Below, one piece after another: positions 38,040 to 56,405 of a DNA stretch of 64,000 nt. Below the pieces are notes generated by a model. It made no database searches. It saw nothing but the letters and a program-made list of their open reading frames with translations, and was not told the DNA's origin. The stretch spans positions 1 through 64,000 of the forward strand of contig JBBDNB010000018.1 of NCBI GenBank assembly GCA_040877935.1. Reading direction: 5' to 3'. The translations under genes and the position numbers were made by a program. Position 1 is the stretch's first letter; the number at the start of each line of letters is the position of its first letter. This DNA is from Chitinophagales bacterium. GTDB lineage: Bacteria; Bacteroidota; Bacteroidia; Chitinophagales; CAIOSU01.

Positions 38040-41000
38040 TTACTGAGGTGGTTCCTTCACATTCAACCTTCCACCGGTTTCAATATGCAATTGAGTAGCG
38101 GTATCCATATAGTAAGTATTGCACTTGCCCAATACTCCATCAAAAATATGCGGTTGATTAGGCCTGAGCGGTATGATGACATCGGTGTCATAATCAGGAA
38201 CCCCACATTGCCAGTTCATGGGTTTGTCCCAGTCAGTATCAATATTACCCGTCCAGATAGACCGATTAATAGGCAATACATCTATTTCGAGGGCATTGCC
38301 GATTTGAGGATTGTTACAGGCTCCTGAAGTAACAGCCCGCCTGAAATAGGTTTTCTGGGTCAGTGAATCGGGCTTGTAATTTCTGGAATTGGAACCCGGT
38401 ATCTGGATCCATGTCATGGTGTTATAGCTGTATTCCCAAACAAAATTGTAATTGGTCGAATCACCACCTGCCGGTATAGTTCCCGTTAGGGTATCGGGGG
38501 CAGTATTATAACAAACAGTTTGCTCTGCCTGGATAATATTATTTGAAAGGCTGGGCTGTATTACGACCACTATTTTCTGACTGATATCTTCACAGTTTCC
38601 AGACCTTACAACACGTCTGTAATGAGTTGTAGAAGACAATGTAGGCGGAATATAGTGTATTGAATCAGCTCCAGGAATATCAGTATAATTGTTTCCCTGT
38701 GACTTATATTGCCATTGATAAGTGTAATTCCCATTGGCGCCAGTGGGCTGTGATCCAATTATACTTGTTGGACGACCTGAATTACAGAACGGTCCGGGAT
38801 TTCCAAGAACACTTAAATTGTTATTGCTAATTGGCGAAGCTGTAATTTGAATAACATTACTTTCATCTCCAAAACTTCCGGTACAAGGTCCTGAATATAC
38901 GGTTCTTCTAAACCAGGTTGTTTGAGAAATGCCTCCCGGAGTATAATCCTGACCGGTATTGGCTCCTACAGCTGCACTAAACCCTGTAGAAGCTGAAGTG
39001 GTACTACTTTCCCACAAATAAGTAAAAGCACCGTCACCTCCTATAGGCAATGATCCTGTTAAAACGGATGGCGTATCACCTACACAAATATTTTGATCGG
39101 CAGAAATAGTGTTGTTGTCAATACTCAGGATCGTAACTTTGATCACATTGCTGGTATCCGATTGGGCATCAACACATGGTCTTGAAGTGACAATTCTTCG
39201 GTACCAGGTATCTTCCATATGTGCAGTAGCTGGTGTATAATCTTTCTGATCACTGCTTCCCGGTGCATTTGCAAATCCTGAAGCTGAAGAAGTAGTACTG
39301 ACCTGCCATTGATAAGCATAGTTGCCATTGCCACCTGTGGGCAATGAGCCTGTAAATGCATCAGGTGTTTGCCCTATACATATTGTTTGTGCAGTATCAA
39401 TTGTATTGTCATCAATAGAAGGCAATACTGATATCTCAATTACATTGCTGGCATTGGTTTCATTACCTGTACAAACGCCTGAAGAAGCAATTCTCCTGTA
39501 CCAGGTAGTATCGTTTAGCACAGGTGGCGAATAGTTTTGCCCGGTAGCTCCACTGATTACTGAGAAATTTGCATTATCCGTAGATACTTCCCATTGATAA
39601 GTGTAAGTAGAATGATTTCCTCCTGTTGGAATGCTACCTGTCAATTGATCGGGAGCCTGCCCTGAGCAAATGGTTTGTGCTTCATTGATCAGGTTGCTGT
39701 CAATAGGCGGCAATACATTGACCGTCACTGTGCTACTGTCAACACAGCCCGTAGCAGTATTGGTTACAATCAATTGATAAGTAGTCGTATCTAAAGGACT
39801 GGCAATTGGGTTGGCAACTGTAGCAGAACTTAATGTAGCAGTCGGTGACCAGCTGTAAGATCTGTTGGATTGTGGAGATGCTCCAATTTGAGTGCTTTGT
39901 CCATAACAAATGGTTCGTTCGCTGCCGGGATTTACTGTAGGCAATGGGTTAACCGTTACAGGCATTGCATTTTCCGCCCAGATCGGACAGCCATTGTCTC
40001 CAGTAACCGTTACATTGTAATTCCCAGAGGTAGTTACTGTTGTTGATGTTGTAGTATCCCCATTCGACCATAAGTATGACACATAAGAAGAATCGGTACT
40101 TGATATTAATGTTACAGAATCACCCTCACAGAATGTAGTAGGACCATCAGCCGTAATGATTGGCCTGGGTGGTGCTGGTTTTACAGTTATATATAATGAA
40201 TCATCTACTGAGCAACCATTTGCGTCTGTATTTACAACTATATACCAACCTTGTGATGCCAATGTAGCAGGAAAAGGCACCGGGTTAATTTGACCCGAAG
40301 TATATCCATTTGGCCCCGTCCATGACCAGGTAACTTTACCAAAGCCCTGCCCTTTTCCAAGCAGGTTGATATTTCCAGAAGTTTCACATACTTCCGTATC
40401 ATTGGATTCAGCAGTAGCCTCAACATATGGAAAGGTATCAAAAGATTTAGTAGAAGTAGAGCTAATTCCACAGTTATTTACACCATAAACACTGATTGAG
40501 CCAGGAGTAGTGGACGCATCAAATTGAATGACAATTACATTGGAGTCAGCTCCTGAGAGAACTGTTGCAGTAGAGGGTATATCCCATACATAACTCGTGG
40601 CATGTGCTATGCTATCAATAGAGAAAACAAAACCCTGGCCACCCGGGCAAATTGTATTGGCTCCTGAAATAGACCCTGCCGAACCGGGCAGCGGATCTAC
40701 TGTAACTTCAAAGCTTTGTGTTGAATTGGTTCCACAGTCATTTGTTCCGGTGACAGTCACAAATCCTGAAGTGGCTATATCAGAATAATCGACTGTAATA
40801 CTGTTGGTACCTGCTCCACTAACTATTGATGCTCCAGGAGGCAATGTCCATTGATAATCTGTGGCATGATCAATAGGAGGCACAGAATATACAATTCCCG
40901 ATTCAGCCTGACAAACAGGACTTACACCTGTAATGGTATCAGCTTCAACCGGTAAAGGATCCACTGTCACATTATAATCAGCAGACACGCTTCCATTGCC

Positions 41001-44000
41001 ACATCCGTTGGTTCCATGTACTGTAATTGTCCCTGAAATCGCTGTATCGGAATAGTTTACGATAATATTATTTGTGTTTGCACCAGAAACAATGCTTATA
41101 CCCTGAGGCAATGACCATTCATAACCACTTGCATATTGAATGGAAGGCACTTCATATTCCACATTGTTCTCCCCCTGGCAGACTGTTGTTGTACCGCTGA
41201 TCGTTCCAGCAGCTTCTGGATATTGATTCACTGTAATTTCAATAACATTACTGGTATCTGTACATTCTCCAGAAGATACGGCTCTTCTGAACCAGGTTGT
41301 TTCTGTAAGTACAGCCGGGCTGTAGTTCTGTCCAGTGTTGGTGCCTGAAGCAGCTGTATAGCCTGAGCCGGAAGAAGTTGTACTGCTTTCCCACAAATAA
41401 TTATACAAGCCATCCCCTCCTGTTGCTGCCTCTCCTAAAAGTTCATCAGGAACATCTCCCGCACAAATGGTCTGTGCTGCTTCAATCAAATTCTCAGCAA
41501 TTGCGTCTTGTACATTGATAGTGATCTGGTTTGAGTTTTGACAACCGGTAGCAGTTATTGTTTCAATAAGTGCATATGTAGTTGTATCAGAAGGGTTTGC
41601 TACAGGATTTGAAACAGCAGCATCATTCAAAGCACTGACAGGAGACCAGGAATAGGTGTTTCCAGCTGTTGCAACAGCTCCAATCTGAATACTTTGACCA
41701 TCACAAATATTTACATTGCCACCAGTATTTGCAGAAGGCAATGGATTTACGGTAACTACAACCGAGTCAATATTTTGACAGCCTGTAGCGGTAATAGTTT
41801 CTGTTAAAACATAGGTGGTTGTTTCAGTGGGGCTTGCAATAGGGTTGGAAATAGCAGTATCATCCAATCCATTTACAGCCGACCATGAATAGGTGTTTCC
41901 AGCAACGGCTGTCGCTCCGATCTGTACACTTTCTCCCAAACAAATTATTTGATCATTGCCGGTATTGGCTTCTGGTAATGAATTGACAACAATGGTAACA
42001 GAATCCGTGTTTGAACAGCCATTGCCATCGGTTCCGGTCACAATATATTTGGTAGTTTCATTTGGACTGGCTGTCACATTTGCTCCTGAAGTAGCACTTA
42101 ATCCATCAGCAGGAGACCAGGAATAAGAACTTCCTCCTGAAGCTGATAGATTTGCTGATTCACCATTACAAATGGTATCTGTATCTGCTGATACTGAAAT
42201 ATTAGGAAGGGAGTTAACCGTTACTGTTACTGAATCAATATTCTGGCAACCAGTGGCGGTAATTGTTTCTGTTAAAGTATAGGTAGTAGTTGTTGTAGGG
42301 CTTGCCAATGGGTTTGAAACAGCAGCATCATCTAAACCACTTGCAGGAGACCAGGAATAGGTATTTCCTGCAACGGCAGCCGCTCCGATCTGTATGCTTT
42401 CTTCCAGGCAAATTGTTTGATCATTGCCGGTATTGGCTTCTGGCAAAGGATTTACAGTAACTACAACTGAATCGACTTTTTGACAGCCCGTTGCGGTAAT
42501 GGTTTCTGTTAAAACATAGGTGGTTGTTTCTGTTGGGCTGGCCACTGGACTTGAAGCAACAGCATCACTCAAACCACTGGCAGGCGACCAGGAATAAGTA
42601 TTTCCGGCAACGGCAGCCGCTCCAATCTGTATGCTTTCTTCCAAACAAATTGTTTGATCATTGCCGGTATTGGCTTCAGGAAGCGGGTTTACGGCAACTA
42701 CAACCGAATCGACTTTTTGACAGCCTGTGGCTGAAATGGTTTCTGTTAAAACATAAGTTGTGGTTTCAGTCGAGCTTGCCACTGGATTTGAAGCAGATGC
42801 ATCACTCAACCCACTTGCAGGTGACCACGAATATGTATTGCCCGCAACTGCAACGGCTCCGATCTGTACACTTTCTTCCAGGCAAATTGTTTGGTCATTG
42901 CCTGTATTGGCTTCAGGAAGCAGGTTTACGGTAACTACAACTGAATCCACATTTTGACAACCAGTGGCGGTAATAGTTTCTGTTAAAACATAGGTGGTTG
43001 TTTCAGTGGGGCTTGCAATAGGGTTGGAAATTGCAGCATCACTCAAACCACTTGCAGGCGACCAGGAATAGGTGTTTCCGGCAACGGCTGTCGCTCCGAT
43101 CTGTATGCTTTCTTCCAAGCAAATTGTTTGATCATTACCTGTATTGGCCTCTGGTAATGGATTGACAACAATGGTAACAGAATCCGTATTGGAACAGCCA
43201 TTGCCATCGGTTCCGGTCACAATATATGTGGTAGTTTCACTTGGGCTTGACATTACATTTGCTCCGCTTGTGGCGCTTAAACCATCGGCAGGAGACCAGG
43301 AATAAGAACTTCCTCCTAAAGCTGATAGATTTGTCGATTCACCATTACATATAGTGTCGGAGTTTGCTGATACAGAAATATTTGGCAAAGGATTAACGGT
43401 AACGGTAACTGAATCAATATTCTGGCAACCGGTGGCGGTAATGGTTTCTATTAAAGTATAGGTAGTGGTTGTAGTAGGACTTGCTACTGGATTTGAAGCA
43501 TTGGGATCATCTAAACCACTTGCAGGTGACCATGAATAGGTGTTTCCGGCAACAGCAGTTGCTCCGATCTGTATGCTTTCTTCCAGACAAATTATTTGAG
43601 CATTGCCTGTATTGGCTTCTGGTAATGGATTGACAACAATGGTAATTGAATCCTTACTGGAACAGCCATTGCCATCGGTTCCGGTTAAAATATAAGTGTT
43701 TGTCTCATTCGGAGTGGCAGTTACATTTGCTCCGCTTGTGGCACTTAAACCATCGGCAGGAGACCAGGAATAAGTATTGCCTCCTGAAGCTGATAGATTT
43801 GCTGATTCGCCAATACAAAAGGTATCAAAATCAGCAGAAACAACAATGTTAGGCAATGGATTCACTGAAACTGTAACAGAGTCAAAATTTTGACAGCCTG
43901 TAGCACTAATGGTTTCGGTTAAAATATAGGTTGTTGTATCTGCCGGGCTTGCCATCGGATTTGAAACAGCAGCATCACTTAATCCACTTGCAGGCGACCA

Positions 44001-47000
44001 TGAATAAGTATTTCCTGCAACAGCAGAAGCTCCAATCTGTAAACTTTCTTCCAGGCAAATTGTTTGATCATTTCCGGTATTGGCTTCTGGCAGAGGATTT
44101 ACAGTTACTATAACTGAATCAATATTCTGACAACTGGTAGAGGTAATGGTTTCTGTTAAAACATAGGTGATGGTTTCAGTCGGACTTGCTGTAGGGTTTG
44201 AAGCAGCAGCATCACTTAATCCACTTGCAGGCGACCATGAATAGGTGTTTCCAGCAACAGAGACTGTTCCGATTTGAATATTTTCACCAATACAAATATC
44301 CTGATCACCTCCTGTATTGGCAGCAGGAAGAGGATTGACAACAATGGTAATTGAATCCTTATTGGAACAGCCATTGCCATCGGTTCCGGTCACAATATAT
44401 GTGATAGTTTCACTTGGGCTTGCCGTTACATTTGCTCCGCTTGTGGCGCTTAAACCATCGACTGGTGACCAGGAATAGGAACTTGCTCCTGAAGCTGATA
44501 AATTTGCAGATTCACCATTACATATGGTATCAGTATCTGCGGATACTAAAATAGTTGGCAAGGAATTAACCGTTACCGTTATAGAATCAATATTCTGACA
44601 ACCGGTGGCTGAAATGGTTTCGGTTAATACATAAGTGGTGGCTTCATCCGGACTTGCCATTGGATTTGCAACAGCAGCATCACTCAATCCTGCTGCAGGC
44701 GACCACAAATAAGTATTGCCAGCAACAGCAGTCGCTCCGATCTGTACACTTTCTTCCAGGCAAATTGTTTGATCATTGCTGGTATTGGCTTCAGGAAGCG
44801 GATTTACGGTAACTACAACTGAATCCACATTTTGGCAGCCTGTAGCGGTAATGGTTTCGGTTAATACATAAGTCGTGGTTTCATTCGAACTTGCTGTAGG
44901 ATTGGAAACAGAAGCATCACTTAAGCCAATGGCTGGCGACCATGAATAAGTGTTTCCAGCAACAGCAGTAGCTCCAATTTGTACACTTTCTTCAAGGCAA
45001 ATATCTTCATCATTTCCAGGATTTGCAAGGGGTAATGGATTGACTGTAATCGTTATTGTATCTGTACTGGAACATGCATTGATATCGGTTCCTGTAACAA
45101 CATAAGTTGTAGTTTCACTTGGACTGGCTGTCACATTTGCTCCTGTCGTAGCACTTAAACCATCGGCAGGCGACCAGGAATAAGTATTGCCTCCTGAAGC
45201 TGATAGATTTGTCGATTCACCATAACATATAGTGTCGGAATTTGCTGATACAGAAATGTTTGGCAATGGATTAACTGTAATGGTTATAGAATCAATATTC
45301 TGACAAGCAGTAGCTGTAACTACCTCTGTTAAAGTATAAGTGGTAGTAGTTGTTGGGCTTGCAATCGGGTTAGAAATAGCGGCATCACTCAAACCACTGG
45401 CTGGAGACCAGGAATAGGTGTTTCCAGCTACAGTTGTAGCTCCTATTTGAACATTTTCCCCAATGCATATTTCCTGATCACTTCCGGTATTGGCTTCAGG
45501 AAGAGGATTGACAACAATGGTAATTGAATCCTTATTGGAACAGCCATTGCCATCAGTTCCAGTGACAATATATATGGTAGTTTCATTTGGACTGGCTGTC
45601 ACATTTGAACCTGTTGTAGCACTTAAACCATCGGCAGGCGACCAGGAATAAGAACTTCCTCCTGAAGCTGATAGATTGGCAGATTCACCATTACATATGG
45701 TATCAAAATCAGCAGACACTACAATATTTGGCAAAGGATTTACGGTGACGATCACAGAATCCGAATATTGGCAACCCGTAGCTGTAATGGTTTCAGTTAA
45801 AATATAAGTCGTGGTTTCGGAAGGACTTGCCATTGGGTTAGAAACAGCAGCATCGCTCAAACCACTTGCAGGTGACCATGAATAGGTGTTTCCTGCAACG
45901 GCAGCCGCTCCAATCTGTACACTTTCTTCCAGGCAAATTGTTTGATCATTGCCAGTATTGGCATTTGGTAATGGATTAACTGTAACTGTAACCGAATCCA
46001 CATTTTGACAGCCGGTGGCGGTAATGGTTTCGGTTAAAATATAGGTGGTGGTTTCTGTTGGGCCTGCTGTTGGATTAGAAACAGTAGCTTCGCTCAACCC
46101 ACTTGAAGGAGACCAGGAATATGTATTGCCGACAACAGGTGCTGCCCCAATTTGCACACTATCACCAATACAAAGTGGCTGATCATTTCCGGTATCGGCA
46201 TCGGGCAAAGGATTCAGTGACAATATTGCCACATCAGAAGTGTCACTTCCCGTATTATTGCTAAAGACAGCCCTATATTGATTGTTGTTATCTGCATAAT
46301 CTGAAGTAAAAGTATAGTTCGTTGAAGTGGCACCTGAAATATCAGACCATGAATTTCCTCCATCATTACTCACCTGCCACTGAACTGAAGGTGCAGGTGC
46401 ACCACTGGCCGAAGCACTAAACGAAACATCTTCCCCTGCGCAATGCAAAGCAGAGGATGGATCAGTAGTTACAGTCGGGGCATTGGGTGGATAGGCCAGC
46501 CATTCCACATCATCAATAAACATATTGTTGCCTCGTTGGCTAGTTGCATAAAAGATAATGTGATTGGTATTTCCTGAAAATGCAAAAGGAATATCAAAGG
46601 AATATTCATACCAGCCATCAGCAGATTCTGTTGGGGATAAACTGCGCGAGCGATGAATTGTCCCCAATAATGTGGCTCCGCCAATTCCGGTTCCGGTATT
46701 GACATAAACATCTATTTTGTCGGCAGCTGAAGAAGCGCCATTGTCGCGATACATCCAGAATGTGACAGTGGAAGTATTGTTTTCCCTGGCAGATAAATCA
46801 AAAGCAGGAGTGATTAAACTTACTGTTCCCCCACTTTTAACTACCGATGATTCAAATTGAGCCATGCCCGCTCCTGAATTTGGAGTAGTAGCAGGGTTTG
46901 TGCCGTTGGTTACCCTACTCCAATGTGTTACAGCAGGATTGGTACCCTGCCCACCGGGGTTGGCAACTACAACTTGTCTTGTCCAACCATTTGGAGGAAA

Positions 47001-47168
47001 CACAGTTGCGTCAAAAGATTCGGTATTGAGCACCTGTGCATGAGTAGGTTTCGATATAAAGACTCCTGCAAATAAAAGAGCTACAAGGAGTATATACCGA
47101 CTAATATTTATAGAGTGAACAGTGTCAATAGGTTTACTCCACAGATAAGAAATAATTGATTTATACAT
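38040..47168 (-). CDS. Giant secreted multi-repeat (Ig/PKD-like) surface protein
   Basis: The protein has about 3,042 aa from ATG 47168, or 3,067 from ATG 47243. A signal peptide ends ISKPTHAQ after a long n-region. A choice-of-anchor/MAM-like jelly roll follows (ESFDATVFPPNGWTRQ to NNMFIDDVEWLAYPP), then one Ig-like domain. Next come 20 tandem units: 14 of A type (79 residues; NPLPEANTGNDQTICLEES.. TYSWSPASGLSD) and 6 of B type (77 residues; VSADTDTICNGESANLSASG). Later come one C unit, three D units (about 88 residues; DPLP...SYVWDIP), two divergent units, one A and five C units (about 95 residues; TIC.G..P..LTGS.P.GG). The last 75 residues (WTGNIDTDWDKPMNWQCGVP) resemble a domain that often precedes a T9SS sorting domain, yet no canonical type A or B sorting domain follows. 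It is likely a cell-surface adhesin. Confidence 0.85.
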   Translation of the reverse strand: MYKSIISYLWSKPIDTVHSINISRYILLVALLFAGVFISKPTHAQVLNTESFDATVFPPNGWTRQVVVANPGGQGTNPAVTHWSRVTNGTNPATTPNSGAGMAQFESSVVKSGGTVSLITPAFDLSARENNTSTVTFWMYRDNGASSAADKIDVYVNTGTGIGGATLLGTIHRSRSLSPTESADGWYEYSFDIPFAFSGNTNHIIFYATSQRGNNMFIDDVEWLAYPPNAPTVTTDPSSALHCAGEDVSFSASASGAPAPSVQWQVSNDGGNSWSDISGATSTNYTFTSDYADNNNQYRAVFSNNTGSDTSDVAILSLNPLPDADTGNDQPLCIGDSVQIGAAPVVGNTYSWSPSSGLSEATVSNPTAGPTETTTYILTETITATGCQNVDSVTVTVNPLPNANTGNDQTICLEESVQIGAAAVAGNTYSWSPASGLSDAAVSNPMASPSETTTYILTETITATGCQYSDSVIVTVNPLPNIVVSADFDTICNGESANLSASGGSSYSWSPADGLSATTGSNVTASPNETTIYIVTGTDGNGCSNKDSITIVVNPLPEANTGSDQEICIGENVQIGATTVAGNTYSWSPASGLSDAAISNPIASPTTTTTYTLTEVVTATACQNIDSITITVNPLPNISVSANSDTICYGESTNLSASGGNTYSWSPADGLSATTGANVTASPSETTTYVVTGTDINACSSTDTITITVNPLPLANPGNDEDICLEESVQIGATAVAGNTYSWSPAIGLSDASVSNPTASSNETTTYVLTETITATGCQNVDSVVVTVNPLPEANTSNDQTICLEESVQIGATAVAGNTYLWSPAAGLSDAAVANPMASPDEATTYVLTETISATGCQNIDSITVTVNSLPTILVSADTDTICNGESANLSASGASSYSWSPVDGLSATSGANVTASPSETITYIVTGTDGNGCSNKDSITIVVNPLPAANTGGDQDICIGENIQIGTVSVAGNTYSWSPASGLSDAAASNPTASPTETITYVLTETITSTSCQNIDSVIVTVNPLPEANTGNDQTICLEESLQIGASAVAGNTYSWSPASGLSDAAVSNPMASPADTTTYILTETISATGCQNFDSVTVSVNPLPNIVVSADFDTFCIGESANLSASGGNTYSWSPADGLSATSGANVTATPNETNTYILTGTDGNGCSSKDSITIVVNPLPEANTGNAQIICLEESIQIGATAVAGNTYSWSPASGLDDPNASNPVASPTTTTTYTLIETITATGCQNIDSVTVTVNPLPNISVSANSDTICNGESTNLSALGGSSYSWSPADGLSATSGANVMSSPSETTTYIVTGTDGNGCSNTDSVTIVVNPLPEANTGNDQTICLEESIQIGATAVAGNTYSWSPASGLSDAAISNPIASPTETTTYVLTETITATGCQNVDSVVVTVNLLPEANTGNDQTICLEESVQIGAVAVAGNTYSWSPASGLSDASASNPVASSTETTTYVLTETISATGCQKVDSVVVAVNPLPEANTGNDQTICLEESIQIGAAAVAGNTYSWSPASGLSDAVASSPVASPTETTTYVLTETITATGCQKVDSVVVTVNPLPEANTGNDQTICLEESIQIGAAAVAGNTYSWSPASGLDDAAVSNPLASPTTTTTYTLTETITATGCQNIDSVTVTVNSLPNISVSADTDTICNGESANLSASGGSSYSWSPADGLSATSGANVTASPNETTKYIVTGTDGNGCSNTDSVTIVVNSLPEANTGNDQIICLGESVQIGATAVAGNTYSWSAVNGLDDTAISNPIASPTETTTYVLTETITATGCQNIDSVVVTVNPLPSANTGGNVNICDGQSIQIGAVATAGNTYSWSPVSALNDAAVSNPVANPSDTTTYALIETITATGCQNSNQITINVQDAIAENLIEAAQTICAGDVPDELLGEAATGGDGLYNYLWESSTTSSGSGYTAASGTNTGQNYSPAVLTETTWFRRAVSSGECTDTSNVIEITVNQYPEAAGTISGTTTVCQGENNVEYEVPSIQYASGYEWSLPQGISIVSGANTNNIIVNYSDTAISGTITVHGTNGCGNGSVSADYNVTVDPLPVEADTITGVSPVCQAESGIVYSVPPIDHATDYQWTLPPGASIVSGAGTNSITVDYSDIATSGFVTVTGTNDCGTNSTQSFEVTVDPLPGSAGSISGANTICPGGQGFVFSIDSIAHATSYVWDIPSTATVLSGADSNVIVIQFDASTTPGSISVYGVNNCGISSTSTKSFDTFPYVEATAESNDTEVCETSGNINLLGKGQGFGKVTWSWTGPNGYTSGQINPVPFPATLASQGWYIVVNTDANGCSVDDSLYITVKPAPPRPIITADGPTTFCEGDSVTLISSTDSSYVSYLWSNGDTTTSTTVTTSGNYNVTVTGDNGCPIWAENAMPVTVNPLPTVNPGSERTICYGQSTQIGASPQSNRSYSWSPTATLSSATVANPIASPLDTTTYQLIVTNTATGCVDSSTVTVNVLPPIDSNLINEAQTICSGQAPDQLTGSIPTGGNHSTYTYQWEVSTDNANFSVISGATGQNYSPPVLNDTTWYRRIASSGVCTGNETNASNVIEISVLPSIDDNTIDTAQTICIGQTPDAFTGSLPTGGNGNYAYQWQVSTTSSASGFANAPGSSDQKDYTPATAHMEDTWYRRIVTSRPCVDAQSDTSNVIKVTILSIDNNTISADQNICVGDTPSVLTGSLPIGGDGAFTYLWESSTTSASTGFSAAVGANTGQDYTPGGISQTTWFRRTVYSGPCTGSFGDESNVIQITASPISNNNLSVLGNPGPFCNSGRPTSIIGSQPTGANGNYTYQWQYKSQGNNYTDIPGADSIHYIPPTLSSTTHYRRVVRSGNCEDISQKIVVVIQPSLSNNIIQAEQTVCYNTAPDTLTGTIPAGGDSTNYNFVWEYSYNTMTWIQIPGSNSRNYKPDSLTQKTYFRRAVTSGACNNPQIGNALEIDVLPINRSIWTGNIDTDWDKPMNWQCGVPDYDTDVIIPLRPNQPHIFDGVLGKCNTYYMDTATQLHIETGGRLNVKEPPQ
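41515..46215 (-). repeat. Tandem 237/231-nt coding repeats (20 units)
   Basis: Reading with the gene, the order of the two unit types is A A B A B A A B A A B A B A A A A B A A. Unit lengths of 237 and 231 nt reproduce the observed span. Many neighbouring A units differ at only a few residues, so the array is open to unequal recombination and hard to assemble. Confidence 0.85.
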
Positions 47169-47658
47169 TGGAGACAGGTATATAGTTAGTTTAATCTGTT
47201 TGTTTGGTTCCCTTATTAAAGAAGCAATTGTTTGATTATGCATTATAAATTAGGATTCTATACGTAGACACCCATATTTTGTTTCTTTATCATCCTTTTT
47301 CAATTGATTAACATGGTTTTATTTTGACATAAAATGTTAGCAAAAATAATCATTAGTTAAAGGAGAATCAAGTTTTAAATTGTGAAATTTTATTTTTTAA
47401 TAGAATTTTAAATCAGAATTAATCTAAAGACAGTTATATTTCAATCCAATATTATAATTTATCAATTGAAATTTCATAGCTATTTTTATAAGTTTTGTTG
47501 TTAAGCGTTTATTAATTTTAGATTATTAATCATAAGATAAAGTGCGATGGATTTGCATTTCTCGTAGATTTCAATTTATTGATTGGCTGTTCATCTTCAA
47601 CATTTTACTATATCTGTACTATCTTTACCATGTTATCATTTTGCAACTAAAACTTTAA
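47169..47658. other. AT-rich divergent intergenic region
   Basis: This region of about 415-490 nt lies between the giant gene and the phosphodiesterase operon. It has no gene. A candidate plus-strand -7 is TAAGTTTTG near 47490, and TCATTTTGCA near 47636-47645 precedes the TTG start at 47659. Both are weak; nothing else was recognised. Confidence 0.35.
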
Positions 47659-48588
47659 TTGATTTTGCTCAGGCTTTTTGCAATTTTTATTTGTATTTGC
47701 ACACTTTATTCAGAAACAGGACTCTTACAAGCACAAGTCAATGAAGCAAAATTTGACGAGGATACTTTTGATCTAAAAGTGCTCAGCTGGAATCTTTATT
47801 TATTGCCGCGATTTTTTAAACCAACTAAGCAGTTGATACGGGCAAAATATATTGCCGAAAGACTTGTTGAAGAAGATTACGATGCATTGATGCTACAGGA
47901 AGTTTTTGGCAAACTATCAAGTACTATTTTACATAAAGGACTCAAAGAACACTATCCATACTACCTGGGGCCTGCCAACAAAAAAGGCAGTCCGTTCAAA
48001 GCCAATAGCGGAGTAATGATTTATAGCAAATATCCTTTGGAATTGCTCACCGAATTTCAATTTGAAGATTGCAAAGGCATAGATTGCTGGGGAAGGAAAG
48101 GTGGCTTACTGGCGGCATTCGAAAAAGATGGGCAAGAATATCAAATAATGTCAACACATCTACAAGCATTTGAAGGAGATAAACGGGACAAAATACGCCT
48201 GTTGCAATACCATCAAATATTGCGCGATGTAGTATTGCCTTACAGCAAAGATGGGGTGCCTCAAATTCTTGGTGGCGATTACAATACAATGAGGCGCGAC
48301 AGTTTTTATTACGATGCCATGCTCTCTGTAATGAATGCAAGCAACAGTCCCTGTGTAGGAGATACAATTTGCACCTACGTATCTTTCAGCAATGACCTGA
48401 TCAATTCTGGAGAGTATGAATTGGTACTGGATTATGTATTTTTGAGAAACAATGGAGTGAAATTCAGTGAAGAAAAACGAAAAGTACGGGTTTTCCAAGC
48501 CGACTGGGATCCACGAAAACGCAGAAGAAAAGGCAAACGCAAAGACCTTTCTGATCATTATGCCGTTGAATTAAAACTAAAAAAATAA
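47659..48588 (+). CDS. Secreted endonuclease/exonuclease/phosphatase-family phosphodiesterase (sphingomyelinase C-like)
   Basis: The protein has 309 aa from a TTG start; no ATG precedes the conserved domain. A signal peptide ends LLQAQ. EEP catalytic motifs in order are VLSWNLYLLPR (Asn), MLQEVF (Glu), STHLQAF (His), GGDYNT (Asp/Asn) and LSDHYAVEL (Asp-His). The insert GIDCWGRKGGLLA matches the neutral/bacterial sphingomyelinase subgroup. It probably hydrolyses a phospholipid or sphingolipid headgroup outside the cell. It is 1 nt from its paralogue and begins a three-gene operon. Confidence 0.82.
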   Translation: MILLRLFAIFICICTLYSETGLLQAQVNEAKFDEDTFDLKVLSWNLYLLPRFFKPTKQLIRAKYIAERLVEEDYDALMLQEVFGKLSSTILHKGLKEHYPYYLGPANKKGSPFKANSGVMIYSKYPLELLTEFQFEDCKGIDCWGRKGGLLAAFEKDGQEYQIMSTHLQAFEGDKRDKIRLLQYHQILRDVVLPYSKDGVPQILGGDYNTMRRDSFYYDAMLSVMNASNSPCVGDTICTYVSFSNDLINSGEYELVLDYVFLRNNGVKFSEEKRKVRVFQADWDPRKRRRKGKRKDLSDHYAVELKLKK

Positions 48589-48589
48589 T

Positions 48590-49501
48590 ATGCCTTTAAT
48601 CACTTTCTTACTTATTGCCATTTTCTCTATTTCTCTTAATGACTGCAAAGCGCAAGACACAGCCTATTTCAATGATTACACAGAAGTAGTCCCTGAAAAT
48701 GAACTCCGCATTTTATCCTGGAATATTCAAATGTTGCCGCGATTGATACTAAGGGTGAGACGAGGTCCGATCAGGCGGTCTCGATTAATTCCACAACATA
48801 TTATTGATGATAAAATCGACATCATTGTTTTTCAGGAAGCTTTTGATAGAAGATGCAGAAGAATATTAAAAAGACGTTTGAAGGAAGAATATCCCTATCA
48901 TGCAGGGCCTGCCAATAAGAATTTTGGCATTCGCACCAATAGTGGCGCTATGATTTTTAGCAAATACCCCATTAAGGAATTGGGCAAAATTAATTTCAGC
49001 GTTTGCGAAGGCATAGACTGCTATGCACACAAAGGTGCCCTACTGGTGGAAATAGAAGCGAAGGGAAAACAAATACAAGTGCTCGGCACCCATTTACAGG
49101 CAGGTGGTTCGGATTCTACAAAAATGAGCGAATACCGAGAACTGGCTGAATTGATTGAAAAACACAGAACAGAAGGCATTCCGCTTTTCCTTTGTGGCGA
49201 TTTCAATACCAATAAAAAAGACCCAGAGCTTTATCCTGAAATGCTCGGCACACTTGATGCACTTGATGGTCCTATTTCAGGGAATTTAAAATTTACTTCT
49301 GATGAATTGCGCAATGATATGTGCGGTGATGGAAATCCTGATAAACTGAAACAAAAAGTGATTGATTATATATTGTTTCAATCCAATGACTGGCAGCCCG
49401 ATTATATGGAAAGAAACATCAGGCAATACCGCGAACGCTGGAGCAAAGACCACATGGATCTTTCGGATCATAATGCTGTACTGATGAAAATACGATATTG
49501 A
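48590..49501 (+). CDS. Secreted EEP-family phosphodiesterase, tandem paralogue
   Basis: This 303-aa protein has a signal peptide (ending CKAQ) and the same motif series: ILSWNIQMLPR, VFQEAF, HLQAGG, CGDFNTN and DLSDHNAVLM, with GIDCYAHKGALL in place of GIDCWGRKGG. It arose by tandem duplication from the gene just upstream, but the two have diverged widely outside the motifs, so they may differ in substrate. It is 1 nt from the HAD gene. Confidence 0.82.
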   Translation: MPLITFLLIAIFSISLNDCKAQDTAYFNDYTEVVPENELRILSWNIQMLPRLILRVRRGPIRRSRLIPQHIIDDKIDIIVFQEAFDRRCRRILKRRLKEEYPYHAGPANKNFGIRTNSGAMIFSKYPIKELGKINFSVCEGIDCYAHKGALLVEIEAKGKQIQVLGTHLQAGGSDSTKMSEYRELAELIEKHRTEGIPLFLCGDFNTNKKDPELYPEMLGTLDALDGPISGNLKFTSDELRNDMCGDGNPDKLKQKVIDYILFQSNDWQPDYMERNIRQYRERWSKDHMDLSDHNAVLMKIRY

Positions 49502-53465: not shown

Positions 53466-54317
53466 ATGTTAATTTCATCCCCTGTGAATCAAAAATGGCT
53501 TTGCATATCATTTTTCTGCTTTGTTTTATCATTGAATCAGCTATTTGCGACAGGCTTTGGAACAGCTACTGGTACTGGTGCTCAGAGTATAGGTGAAATA
53601 GGTTCTACCAGTCAGGATGTGTTTGCCGCACAAAACAACCAAGCCGGCCTCGGTTTTATCAATGATTTTTCAATTGGGGTTTTCAGCTCCAATCGTTTCT
53701 TGGTAAGAGAAACAAGTTATTTTCACCTTTCTACTGCCCTGCCTACTTCAAGTGGTACTTTTGGGCTCACGGTAAATTATCGAGGATCTTCCCTTTTCAA
53801 CGAAAAACAAATAGGCATTGGCTACGGACGCAAGATTGGCAAAAATTTCGCCATTGGTGCCCAATTTGATTACCTCAATTTGTTCCTCAGCGAATACGGT
53901 CAAAAAAACCTTTTCACTTTTGAATTGGGCGTACAATACCTGGCAACAGAGCAATTGCTGATTGCTGCACATGTTTATAACCCGCTGCGTCTTCAATTTG
54001 AGGCACAGGGCTTAGACCGCCTGCGAAGCATTATGCGACTGGGTATTAAATATATGCCGGGGAAAGACTTTGCTTTTCATGCCGAAGTTGAAAAAGATTT
54101 TGATTTTCCGGTACAGGTAAAATTGGGCGCGGAATATACTGCATTTGAAAAATTGAGAATTGGTGCAGGTGTCAAAACCAATCCTTTTGAAGGCTATTTT
54201 GGTGTTTCAGCACTGCTCAATAACCTTACAATCGGAGTATCAGGAGGCTATCACCCATTTCTCGGGTTTTCTCCGCAGGCTTCAATCAGCTATGCTTTTA
54301 AAAAGAAGAAAAAATAA
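53466..54317 (+). CDS. FadL/PorV-like outer-membrane beta-barrel protein
   Basis: This 283-aa protein has a signal peptide (ending LFA) and the glycine-rich mature start TGFGTATGTGAQSIGEIGST, followed by DVFAAQNNQAGLG, which matches the PorQ/PorV-like class where an early NPAGL-type loop is conserved. It then has barrel strands. It sits 6 nt upstream of the helix-hairpin-helix barrel gene and is probably co-transcribed with it. The function of this pair is unknown. Confidence 0.72.
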   Translation: MLISSPVNQKWLCISFFCFVLSLNQLFATGFGTATGTGAQSIGEIGSTSQDVFAAQNNQAGLGFINDFSIGVFSSNRFLVRETSYFHLSTALPTSSGTFGLTVNYRGSSLFNEKQIGIGYGRKIGKNFAIGAQFDYLNLFLSEYGQKNLFTFELGVQYLATEQLLIAAHVYNPLRLQFEAQGLDRLRSIMRLGIKYMPGKDFAFHAEVEKDFDFPVQVKLGAEYTAFEKLRIGAGVKTNPFEGYFGVSALLNNLTIGVSGGYHPFLGFSPQASISYAFKKKKK

Positions 54318-54323
54318 TTTCTT

Positions 54324-56405
54324 GTGAAAAGAAGTTTGTTTGCAATCACGCTTTCATTGTTTTGCCACACAATAATGGCACAGGAAGAAGATGAAAATGC
54401 TTTGCAACGCACCCAGGATATTCTTGAAATTAGCTTGGAAGAACTGGGTGAAGGCAGTTTTGATTTTGACACTTATTTAGAGCGTCTGACTGATTTAGAG
54501 AGACACCCAATCGATCTTAACACAGCAGTTTATGATGATTTTCAACCCTTATTGGACATAGGTCTGATTGATCCGCGACAGATTGATAACCTATTGAAAT
54601 ACCGCGAGCGCTTTGATTATTTTCAAAGTATTTATGAGCTTAAATATGTGATTGACTGGAATTTGGAAAGCATCAAAAAAGTTTTGCCTTTTATATATGT
54701 CAGTGAAGATTTTGAAAGCTACCAACCCACTATAAAACAACAGGTATTTGGAGGAAAGCAGGAAGTGTTTTTGCGCTATTCGCAAGTACTGGAGCAAAAA
54801 AGAGGCTATAGCCCATTGGACAGTGGCAGTACTGCTACAAGATATCCAGGCAATCCGGGCAGGTTGTATTTGCGTTATCGCTACAATTACCGCAATAAAA
54901 TATCTTATGGTTTTACTGCCGAAAAAGACCCCGGAGAGGCTTTTTTTAAAGCACCACAACAAAGAGGTTTTGATTATTATTCAGGCCATGTATTCCTGCG
55001 CGACTTAGGCCCGGTAAAAGCACTGGCACTGGGTGATTATCAGGCCAATTTCGGACAGGGACTGACTTTGTGGACGGGCTTTGGTTTTGCTAAAAGCCCT
55101 TATGTAATGAATATAAAACGTTCGGGAAGAGTGTTGAAACCCTATACTTCTGTAAATGAAAACAATTTCCTGCGCGGAGCTGCTGCTACTTTCAAGTTGG
55201 GTAAATTCAATGTTACAGGTCTTTTCTCCAGAAATAGAATTGACGCCAATGTCCAGAGAATAGATACTACCAATAATACACCATTGGAGATCAGTAATTT
55301 TCAACTAAGCGGCTTACACAGAACAGAAAGCGAAGTGGCCAATAAAGGGACTTTGACCTGGACTGTAACCGGTGGCCATGCAGAATACCAACACAGGGCA
55401 TCGAAAATTGGTGTTTCGGCAGTGCAGCATTTTTTCAATTCCGAGGTCAATCCCGGAGACAGAGTATATCAACGCTATTACCTAAGTGACAAGAGTTTTG
55501 GAAATTACAGTTTGGATTATGCGCTGATGTTGCGGAAGTTTTATTTGTTTGGAGAAAGCAGCATGGACAATCACTTGGGACATGCACATGTGCACGGTTT
55601 TGTAGCTCAACTGGATCCACGCGTAAAAATGGCGGCTGTGTTCCGCTATTTCACTGAAGATTACCGCTCATTTGGCAACAATAGTTTTTCTGAAAACACC
55701 CGTGTTCAAAATGAAAGCGGGCTTTACTGGGGTTGGGAGCTTACACCTCATAAAAAATTAAACCTACAGGCTTATGTTGATTATTTTAAATTTCCATGGC
55801 CGCGCTTTGGGGTTGATGGCCCCTCTTATGGTGTTGAATATTTTGCACAGGCCAATATTGATATTTCACGCTATGTGCAACTTTATTTCCGCTACCGGTA
55901 TAAGAAAAGAGAAAGAAACAACAGGGAAGAAACCGGCCCCATAAATACTGTGATACCTGAAATCCGCCAAAACTGGCGCGCACATATTGCATACAGGGTA
56001 TTTCCATTTCTCACATTGAAAAACAGGGTTGAATTTGTGCGCTTTAAAAATACCGGCAATGAAATTGAAAACGGGTTTTTGATCTACCAGGATTTTAATT
56101 TCTCTAAAGACGATTTCCCTTTGAGTGCAAATTTGCGCCTGGCCTTTTTCGACAGCGATACCTGGAATACAAGAATCTACGCTTATGAAAACGACCTGCT
56201 TTATTATTTCTCAATTCCTGCATATTCGGGACAAGGCGTGCGTTTTTACCTGAATATTAAAATAGATATTAACAAGAATTTTGATTTCTGGCTTAAGTAT
56301 GCCATCAGTCATTTTAGCGACAGAAATACTGTAGGTACTGGACTGGAAGAAATAGAGGGCAATAAAAGATCGGAATTGCGCGGGCAGATCAGGATGAAGT
56401 TCTAA
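54324..56405 (+). CDS. Helix-hairpin-helix domain plus outer-membrane beta-barrel protein
   Basis: This 693-aa protein has a GTG start and a signal peptide (ending IMAQ). Residues about 55-130 hold two ComEA-like HhH repeats: HPIDLNTAVYDDFQPLLDIG and FDYFQSIYELKYVIDWNLES. The remaining 550 residues are a long predicted barrel (KQEVFLRYSQVLEQ, RYRYNYRNKISYGFTAEKD, GDYQANFGQGLTLWTGFGF, and a C-terminal strand ending IRMKF). ComEA HhH domains bind double-stranded DNA in the periplasm. A HhH domain fused to an outer-membrane barrel is a known but poorly understood Bacteroidota type; DNA binding is inferred only. Confidence 0.78.
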   Translation: MKRSLFAITLSLFCHTIMAQEEDENALQRTQDILEISLEELGEGSFDFDTYLERLTDLERHPIDLNTAVYDDFQPLLDIGLIDPRQIDNLLKYRERFDYFQSIYELKYVIDWNLESIKKVLPFIYVSEDFESYQPTIKQQVFGGKQEVFLRYSQVLEQKRGYSPLDSGSTATRYPGNPGRLYLRYRYNYRNKISYGFTAEKDPGEAFFKAPQQRGFDYYSGHVFLRDLGPVKALALGDYQANFGQGLTLWTGFGFAKSPYVMNIKRSGRVLKPYTSVNENNFLRGAAATFKLGKFNVTGLFSRNRIDANVQRIDTTNNTPLEISNFQLSGLHRTESEVANKGTLTWTVTGGHAEYQHRASKIGVSAVQHFFNSEVNPGDRVYQRYYLSDKSFGNYSLDYALMLRKFYLFGESSMDNHLGHAHVHGFVAQLDPRVKMAAVFRYFTEDYRSFGNNSFSENTRVQNESGLYWGWELTPHKKLNLQAYVDYFKFPWPRFGVDGPSYGVEYFAQANIDISRYVQLYFRYRYKKRERNNREETGPINTVIPEIRQNWRAHIAYRVFPFLTLKNRVEFVRFKNTGNEIENGFLIYQDFNFSKDDFPLSANLRLAFFDSDTWNTRIYAYENDLLYYFSIPAYSGQGVRFYLNIKIDINKNFDFWLKYAISHFSDRNTVGTGLEEIEGNKRSELRGQIRMKF

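Follow-up and report, generated by a model that had tools for sequence, protein, structure and literature searches.

A conserved helix-hairpin-helix outer-membrane barrel and its FadL/PorV-type partner in Bacteroidota: a possible conduit for incoming DNA

For Porphyromonas, the available text of PMC11532111 reports that ComEA and ComEC are essential, that no T2SS or T4SS was identified, that the pilus is not involved and that the step of import into the periplasm 'remains unclear'. In Riemerella anatipestifer, according to the accessible portions of PMC8459023, transformation requires RA0C_RS02645, a protein with three helix-hairpin-helix (HhH) domains, and the operon partners RA0C_RS04915, a predicted outer-membrane protein, and RA0C_RS04920, a DUF5689 protein; an insertion in RS04915 also silenced RS04920, so additional mutants underlie the assignment of a role to each gene. 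The phylum also reuses FadL-type barrels as parts of larger outer-membrane machines: the available text of PMC12611786 reports that BamG, a FadL-family barrel of F. johnsoniae, binds BamA as an accessory subunit and is essential. Against this background, we describe a conserved pair of genes for two outer-membrane barrels, the larger of which carries its own HhH domain.

The pair was found in a stretch of 64,000 nucleotides (the window) at the start of contig JBBDNB010000018.1 from the 4.03 Mb, 63-contig genome of a Chitinophagales bacterium. An ORF scan of the window places the two genes on the same strand, 6 nt apart (Table 1), flanked by a divergently oriented gene for 6-pyruvoyl tetrahydropterin synthase and by a convergent one encoding 165 aa; given these flanks, they constitute a two-gene unit. 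The initial annotation had recognized an HhH domain in front of a large barrel paired with a FadL/PorV-like barrel, and on this the ORFs, the family profiles and the structural models agree; its HhH 'repeats' amount to one (HhH)2 domain.

Table 1. Features of the barrel pair, in positions of the window
Feature	Position	Strand	Remarks
FadL/PorV-type 14-strand outer-membrane barrel, partner	53466..54317	+	283 aa; ORF, profile, model
HhH + large outer-membrane barrel protein	54324..56405	+	693 aa, GTG start; ORF, model, alignment
Signal peptide, residues 1-19	54324..54380	+	by eye from sequence
Acidic helical linker, residues 25-59	54396..54500	+	low model confidence
ComEA-related (HhH)2 domain, residues 60-126	54501..54701	+	profiles, alignment; hairpins LID and DWN instead of GhG
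24-strand barrel, residues 145-692	54756..56399	+	AlphaFold2 model; full-span FimD alignment
Conserved segment between strands 5 and 6, residues 244-282	55053..55169	+	GQGL...K...Y.S..E

The large protein shares 25% to 45% identity with 38 relatives, so its HhH-barrel architecture is not a product of chance. An AlphaFold2 model built on an alignment of 39 sequences (39 of 43 long ones, four close relatives of retained rows being omitted) reached a mean pLDDT of 86 and a pTM of 0.82, with helices at residues 48-123 followed by a barrel from residue 145 to 692, for which we count 24 main strands among the listed elements of the model. Gln20, just after the signal peptide, is conserved and nearly invariant in the family alignment, and residues 20-59 have a net charge of -12. 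Residues 244-282, the conserved stretch that links strands 5 and 6, are possibly a constriction or a plug-contact loop. In VIA-align comparisons, FimD ushers match over residues 133-693 (Z 15.1, rmsd 3.8, 362 residues); AlgE scores slightly higher (Z 16.1), yet covers a partial barrel only, with an rmsd of about 6, and TonB receptor barrels and Wzi are also among the structural matches. Z-scores of this size over barrels reflect common architecture and not descent. MtrB, the top Foldseek match (TM 0.39), was likewise set aside as generic large-barrel similarity.

The partner is modeled with a pLDDT of 90.5 as 14 strands with N-terminal plug helices, and its nearest structural relatives are FadL (VIA Z 30.7), PorV (8gl6_F, Z 30.1) and BamG (Z 25-26), with an rmsd of 2.3-2.4 over 250-254 residues for FadL and PorV; chain F of the Type 9 translocon in both 8gl6 and 6h3i is among the matches. 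On the sequence side, the window's partner matches the NCBIfam PorV_fam model (NF033709) at E 8.9e-8 and 32.1 bits, which is under its curated cut-off of 90 bits, and 24 of 28 relatives reach E 0.1 or better against the PorV/PorQ family model. When lumen-facing and lipid-facing residues are assigned by the hydrophobic parity of the strands, not by coordinates, the lumen of the large barrel appears basic (mean net charge +9, positive in 98.6% of 147 sequences), and that of the partner, by the same method, averages -1 and is positive in 22% of 109.

The affinity of the HhH domain emerges at the level of the family. Taken alone, the window's protein gives weak matches (Pfam HHH_3, E 0.18; NCBIfam comE, E 0.079); among the 39 family members, 33 match HHH_3 (best E 2.8e-11) and 23 match TIGR01259 comE, and the family profile recovers ComEA structures at E 3.9e-6 (8dss) and 3.7e-5 over residues 63-131. 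Thus, the fold is homologous to that of ComEA, the sequence match being unambiguous for the family as a whole. The glycines of a GhG hairpin contact the DNA phosphate through their backbone. The initial annotation had seen a potential DNA receptor here, to be refuted if the surface residues for phosphate contact were absent in all homologues; in an alignment of 147 sequences, GhG is lost from hairpin 1 in all 147 and from hairpin 2 in 139, surviving in hairpin 2 of the other eight, with FLS, LLT, GFD and GLD as the usual replacements. The domain is also acidic, with a net charge of -4 in the window and a median of -3 over the 147 sequences, which further disfavors the receptor reading. Hence, in contrast to the periplasmic receptor ComEA, with which it shares the (HhH)2 fold, this domain lacks GhG, is acidic and is fused to an outer-membrane barrel. 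Moreover, the same genome encodes a separate, membrane-anchored ComEA-like protein of 322 aa with three HHH_3 matches, one with a GIG hairpin, which resembles RA0C_RS02645 by domain count, not by sequence comparison. Given the lost hairpins, the acidic charge and this separate protein, we infer that the HhH domain of the barrel serves as a plug or dock; the other suggestion of the initial annotation, a barrel plug or protein-binding module, accordingly fits better than a DNA receptor.

The pair is old and widespread in the phylum. The large barrel is present, mostly as one copy, in 110 of 148 genomes sampled across it (matches of at least 136 bits, counted from the match list; one genome with only a short partial match, G150, was scored as lacking it); the 136 of 148 obtained at E 0.001 in the search with the large protein takes in ComEA-type matches too. 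Within the window's class it matches at E 1e-20 in 125 of 149 genomes, and in its own genome the protein finds a single match. A single-sequence search found matches in 29 of 40 relatives, five of the six same-family relatives, all of genus g2, having none; the named relatives are Bacteroidota, plus one labeled Chlorobiota. The partner gene lies directly upstream of the large barrel in 106 of 148 loci, often with an overlap of 4 or 11 nt, a figure that is a lower bound since contig ends clip some loci. In one family (f35), the partner is recognizable at E 1e-20 in 5 of 30 genomes and the large barrel is found in all 30.

One lineage ties the pair to comEC. Among the 81 genomes of family f23, 68 have both the barrel and comEC, and in 63 of these comEC lies on the same strand within 1.6 kb downstream of the barrel. 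The comEC domain begins 679-785 bp past the barrel match in 54 of the 63, the spacing expected of the next gene, so that comEC directly follows the barrel in those 54; the other nine have a gap above 785 bp, and in most of them a diverged barrel was matched in part only. Genus g197 accounts for all five exceptions (G385, G375, G336, G364 and G352). In the loci that were fetched from this family, comEC is at position +1 in 30 of 33, in many cases sharing 1, 4 or 13 nt with the barrel gene, and the genes upstream of the pair vary while comEC follows. Outside f23, comEC neighbors the pair in none of the 115 loci examined; hence, the comEC operon is the arrangement of one lineage. In genus g49, a MerR gene and comEC stand side by side, and neither porV nor the barrel matched in the three loci searched; thus, with comEC kept, the two genes can disappear jointly, in the manner of a single unit. 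As for simple co-occurrence with comEC, which the initial annotation had offered as a check, comEC is found in 148 of 148 phylum genomes, leaving no contrast to exploit; in the class it is detected at E 1e-20 in 145 of 149, and one genome given as 100% complete (G235) has the barrel and no comEC match at that threshold. The tally within f23 (68 both, 5 neither, 6 comEC only, 2 barrel only; Fisher p 3e-4) is given little weight since joint loss depends on the linkage of the two genes, and the two barrel-only genomes are incomplete (76% and 60%). In the f23 genus g204 (G321, G341, G356, G367, G377 and G387), with genomes of 1.3-2.0 Mb, a strongly diverged barrel gene adjoins comEC.

A second line of evidence comes from the distribution of the Riemerella-type genes. 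The phylum sample includes 37 genomes from the order and class to which the window belongs; of these, 18 of the 20 that lack the barrel and 3 of the 17 that have it contain full-length DUF5689 (E 1e-43 to 1e-70; Fisher p 1e-5), a contrast confounded by ancestry, as families f24 and f25 contribute 16 of the 20 barrel-lacking genomes. Within a single family (f21), genera g33, g36 and g37 have DUF5689 without the barrel, g23 and g34 show the reverse and g35 has both. In all four DUF5689 loci that we read, a same-strand ORF running off the end of the locus precedes DUF5689; the two of these ORFs compared with Pfam gave no match at 0.001, and in our own reading the ORF would correspond to the RS04915 barrel. 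Outside the class, DUF5689 matches are weak (about E 1e-4 to 1e-17), and several phylum genomes there have comEC but lack the barrel as well as a strong DUF5689 match. G134, of genus g49, keeps comEC, is missing the pair and has no DUF5689 match. The two systems are alike as outer-envelope gene pairs with a predicted barrel and a link, proposed here and reported for Riemerella, to natural transformation, and full-length DUF5689 occurs mainly where the HhH barrel is missing. They differ in that the Riemerella barrel is described as TonB-receptor-like and its partner is a DUF5689 protein, neither HhH nor PorV being described in the available text of PMC8459023.

Taken together, these observations lead us to propose, tentatively, that the two barrels together conduct incoming DNA through the outer membrane, the HhH domain acting as plug or dock. 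The architecture, the pairing and the hairpin loss are solid; the comEC operon of f23, the DUF5689 complementarity, the joint absence of porV and barrel in g49 and the basic lumen speak for the conduit, as do the import step left unassigned in Porphyromonas and, weakly, the nearby purine genes. We prefer DNA uptake since no other reading accounts as well for both the comEC operon and the DUF5689 pattern, although both of these could be attributed to lineage history. Against it weigh the lost hairpins and acidic charge of the HhH domain, the restriction of the comEC operon to f23, and the genomes that keep comEC without the pair and without a strong DUF5689 match or, as G235, the barrel without a comEC match. 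The uptake machine envisaged by the initial annotation thus survives without the HhH domain as its DNA binder. Briefly, we advance the following mechanism. The two gene products might assemble into a complex by barrel-barrel contact, in which the accessory FadL/PorV-type barrel would hold the large one. From the periplasm, the degenerate HhH domain might close or gate the wide 24-strand barrel of its own chain, and extracellular DNA would cross the outer membrane through this barrel, to be handed to a separate ComEA-like receptor and then to ComEC. With somewhat greater reserve, we suggest that the single-chain 24-strand barrel, a domesticated ComEA-type HhH gate and the PorV-type support could together represent the outer-membrane DNA translocon of Bacteroidota, free of pilus and secretin, whose place a TonB-receptor-like barrel and a DUF5689 protein would have taken in some lineages. 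Such a device would share with the PilQ secretin and type IV pilus the role of an outer-membrane gate for transforming DNA, proposed here and known for PilQ, and would differ from it as a barrel pair that has no pilus. If correct, it would be a candidate for the long-missing outer gate of DNA uptake in Bacteroidota and would add to SprA-PorV and BamA-BamG a third case in which a FadL-type barrel is the accessory subunit of some larger machine in the outer membrane; the conserved gene pair, the comEC operon and the alternation with DUF5689 open the question of DNA entry to simple deletion tests. We found no description of an HhH-barrel outer-membrane protein in the open-access papers searched.

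The main competing explanation, which we regard as rather unlikely, is an export or assembly machine for protein or another polymer in the manner of SprA-PorV, with the HhH domain as a periplasmic dock and the comEC operon of f23 as coincidence. It draws on the closeness of the partner fold to FadL, PorV and BamG, on the full-span match of the large barrel to the FimD ushers, on the very wide and mostly single-copy distribution, and on the accessory role that FadL-type barrels have in this phylum, both with BamA (available text of PMC12611786) and in the Type 9 translocon (chain F of 8gl6 and 6h3i). With SprA-PorV the pair has in common that an outer-membrane barrel of very large size is accompanied by a FadL/PorV-type barrel of 14 strands. 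The SprA barrel has 36 strands, against 24 predicted here, and the present barrel has its own HhH domain. Furthermore, SprA_N is missing in 31 of 148 genomes (30 of f35 and G041; 20 of these carriers were named directly and the other 11 obtained by subtraction), and all 31 keep a barrel match of at least 300 bits, which rules out membership of the Type 9 system. With BamA-BamG the pair shares the reuse of a FadL-type barrel as a protein-bound accessory subunit, as described in the available text of PMC12611786; in contrast, the large protein of the present pair combines an HhH domain with 24 strands, and no Omp85 match was found for it in a Pfam scan of family members. No conserved substrate gene stands beside the pair, a CHU_C-bearing gene being upstream in six loci of one group only, and export leaves both the comEC operon and the DUF5689 complementarity unexplained.

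Conduction of incoming DNA also has to be weighed against a nutrient channel for some other anionic solute or polymer (nucleotides, a polysaccharide or a siderophore-like ligand) that the HhH domain would plug. The large barrels of TonB receptors and of AlgE/Wzi among the structural matches, the basic lumen and the purine gene upstream are in keeping with such a channel: among the 109 loci that have a partner gene, 13 carry purE (AIR carboxylase) immediately upstream of the pair, the one labeled Chlorobiota (L013) being among them. We consider such a channel improbable, as the neighbor clusters listed (ten types compared with Pfam) show no conspicuous recurrent receptor-partner or enzyme gene and most genomes have a single copy, unlike nutrient receptors. 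Finally, that the HhH domain itself binds incoming DNA for the barrel to translocate is very improbable, for although its ComEA ancestry is clear and the comEC operon would suit it, the hairpin glycines are all but gone, the domain is acidic and the genome has, at another locus, a gene for a ComEA-like protein with three HhH domains.

The wider neighborhoods hold some further features. In L013 (3937-8007) and its relatives, obg-adk-hpt is divergent from purE-porV-barrel, an arrangement that recurs in several families and represents an old purine-metabolism neighborhood. In the window's own genome, the gene for the three-HhH ComEA-like protein (L083:2959-4423, contig 39) overlaps an apt-like phosphoribosyltransferase gene; with purE upstream of the pair elsewhere, this hints weakly at the scavenging of nucleic acids. 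In L111, the barrel pair stands three genes away from a ComEA-like gene that likewise has the phosphoribosyltransferase gene as its neighbor. Frequent divergent neighbors of the pair are DUF4835 genes and hppA-like genes, the latter named by eye from sequence. Within the window, about 4 kb upstream of the pair, two adjacent forward-strand genes (47659-49501) encode proteins of 309 and 303 aa of the endonuclease/exonuclease/phosphatase family (PF03372, E 1.4e-12 and 4e-14), which are probably secreted and might be extracellular nucleases or phosphodiesterases, and the reverse strand at 38040-47243 encodes a 3067-aa surface protein with many near-identical repeats of the 'SWSPASGLSDA' type.
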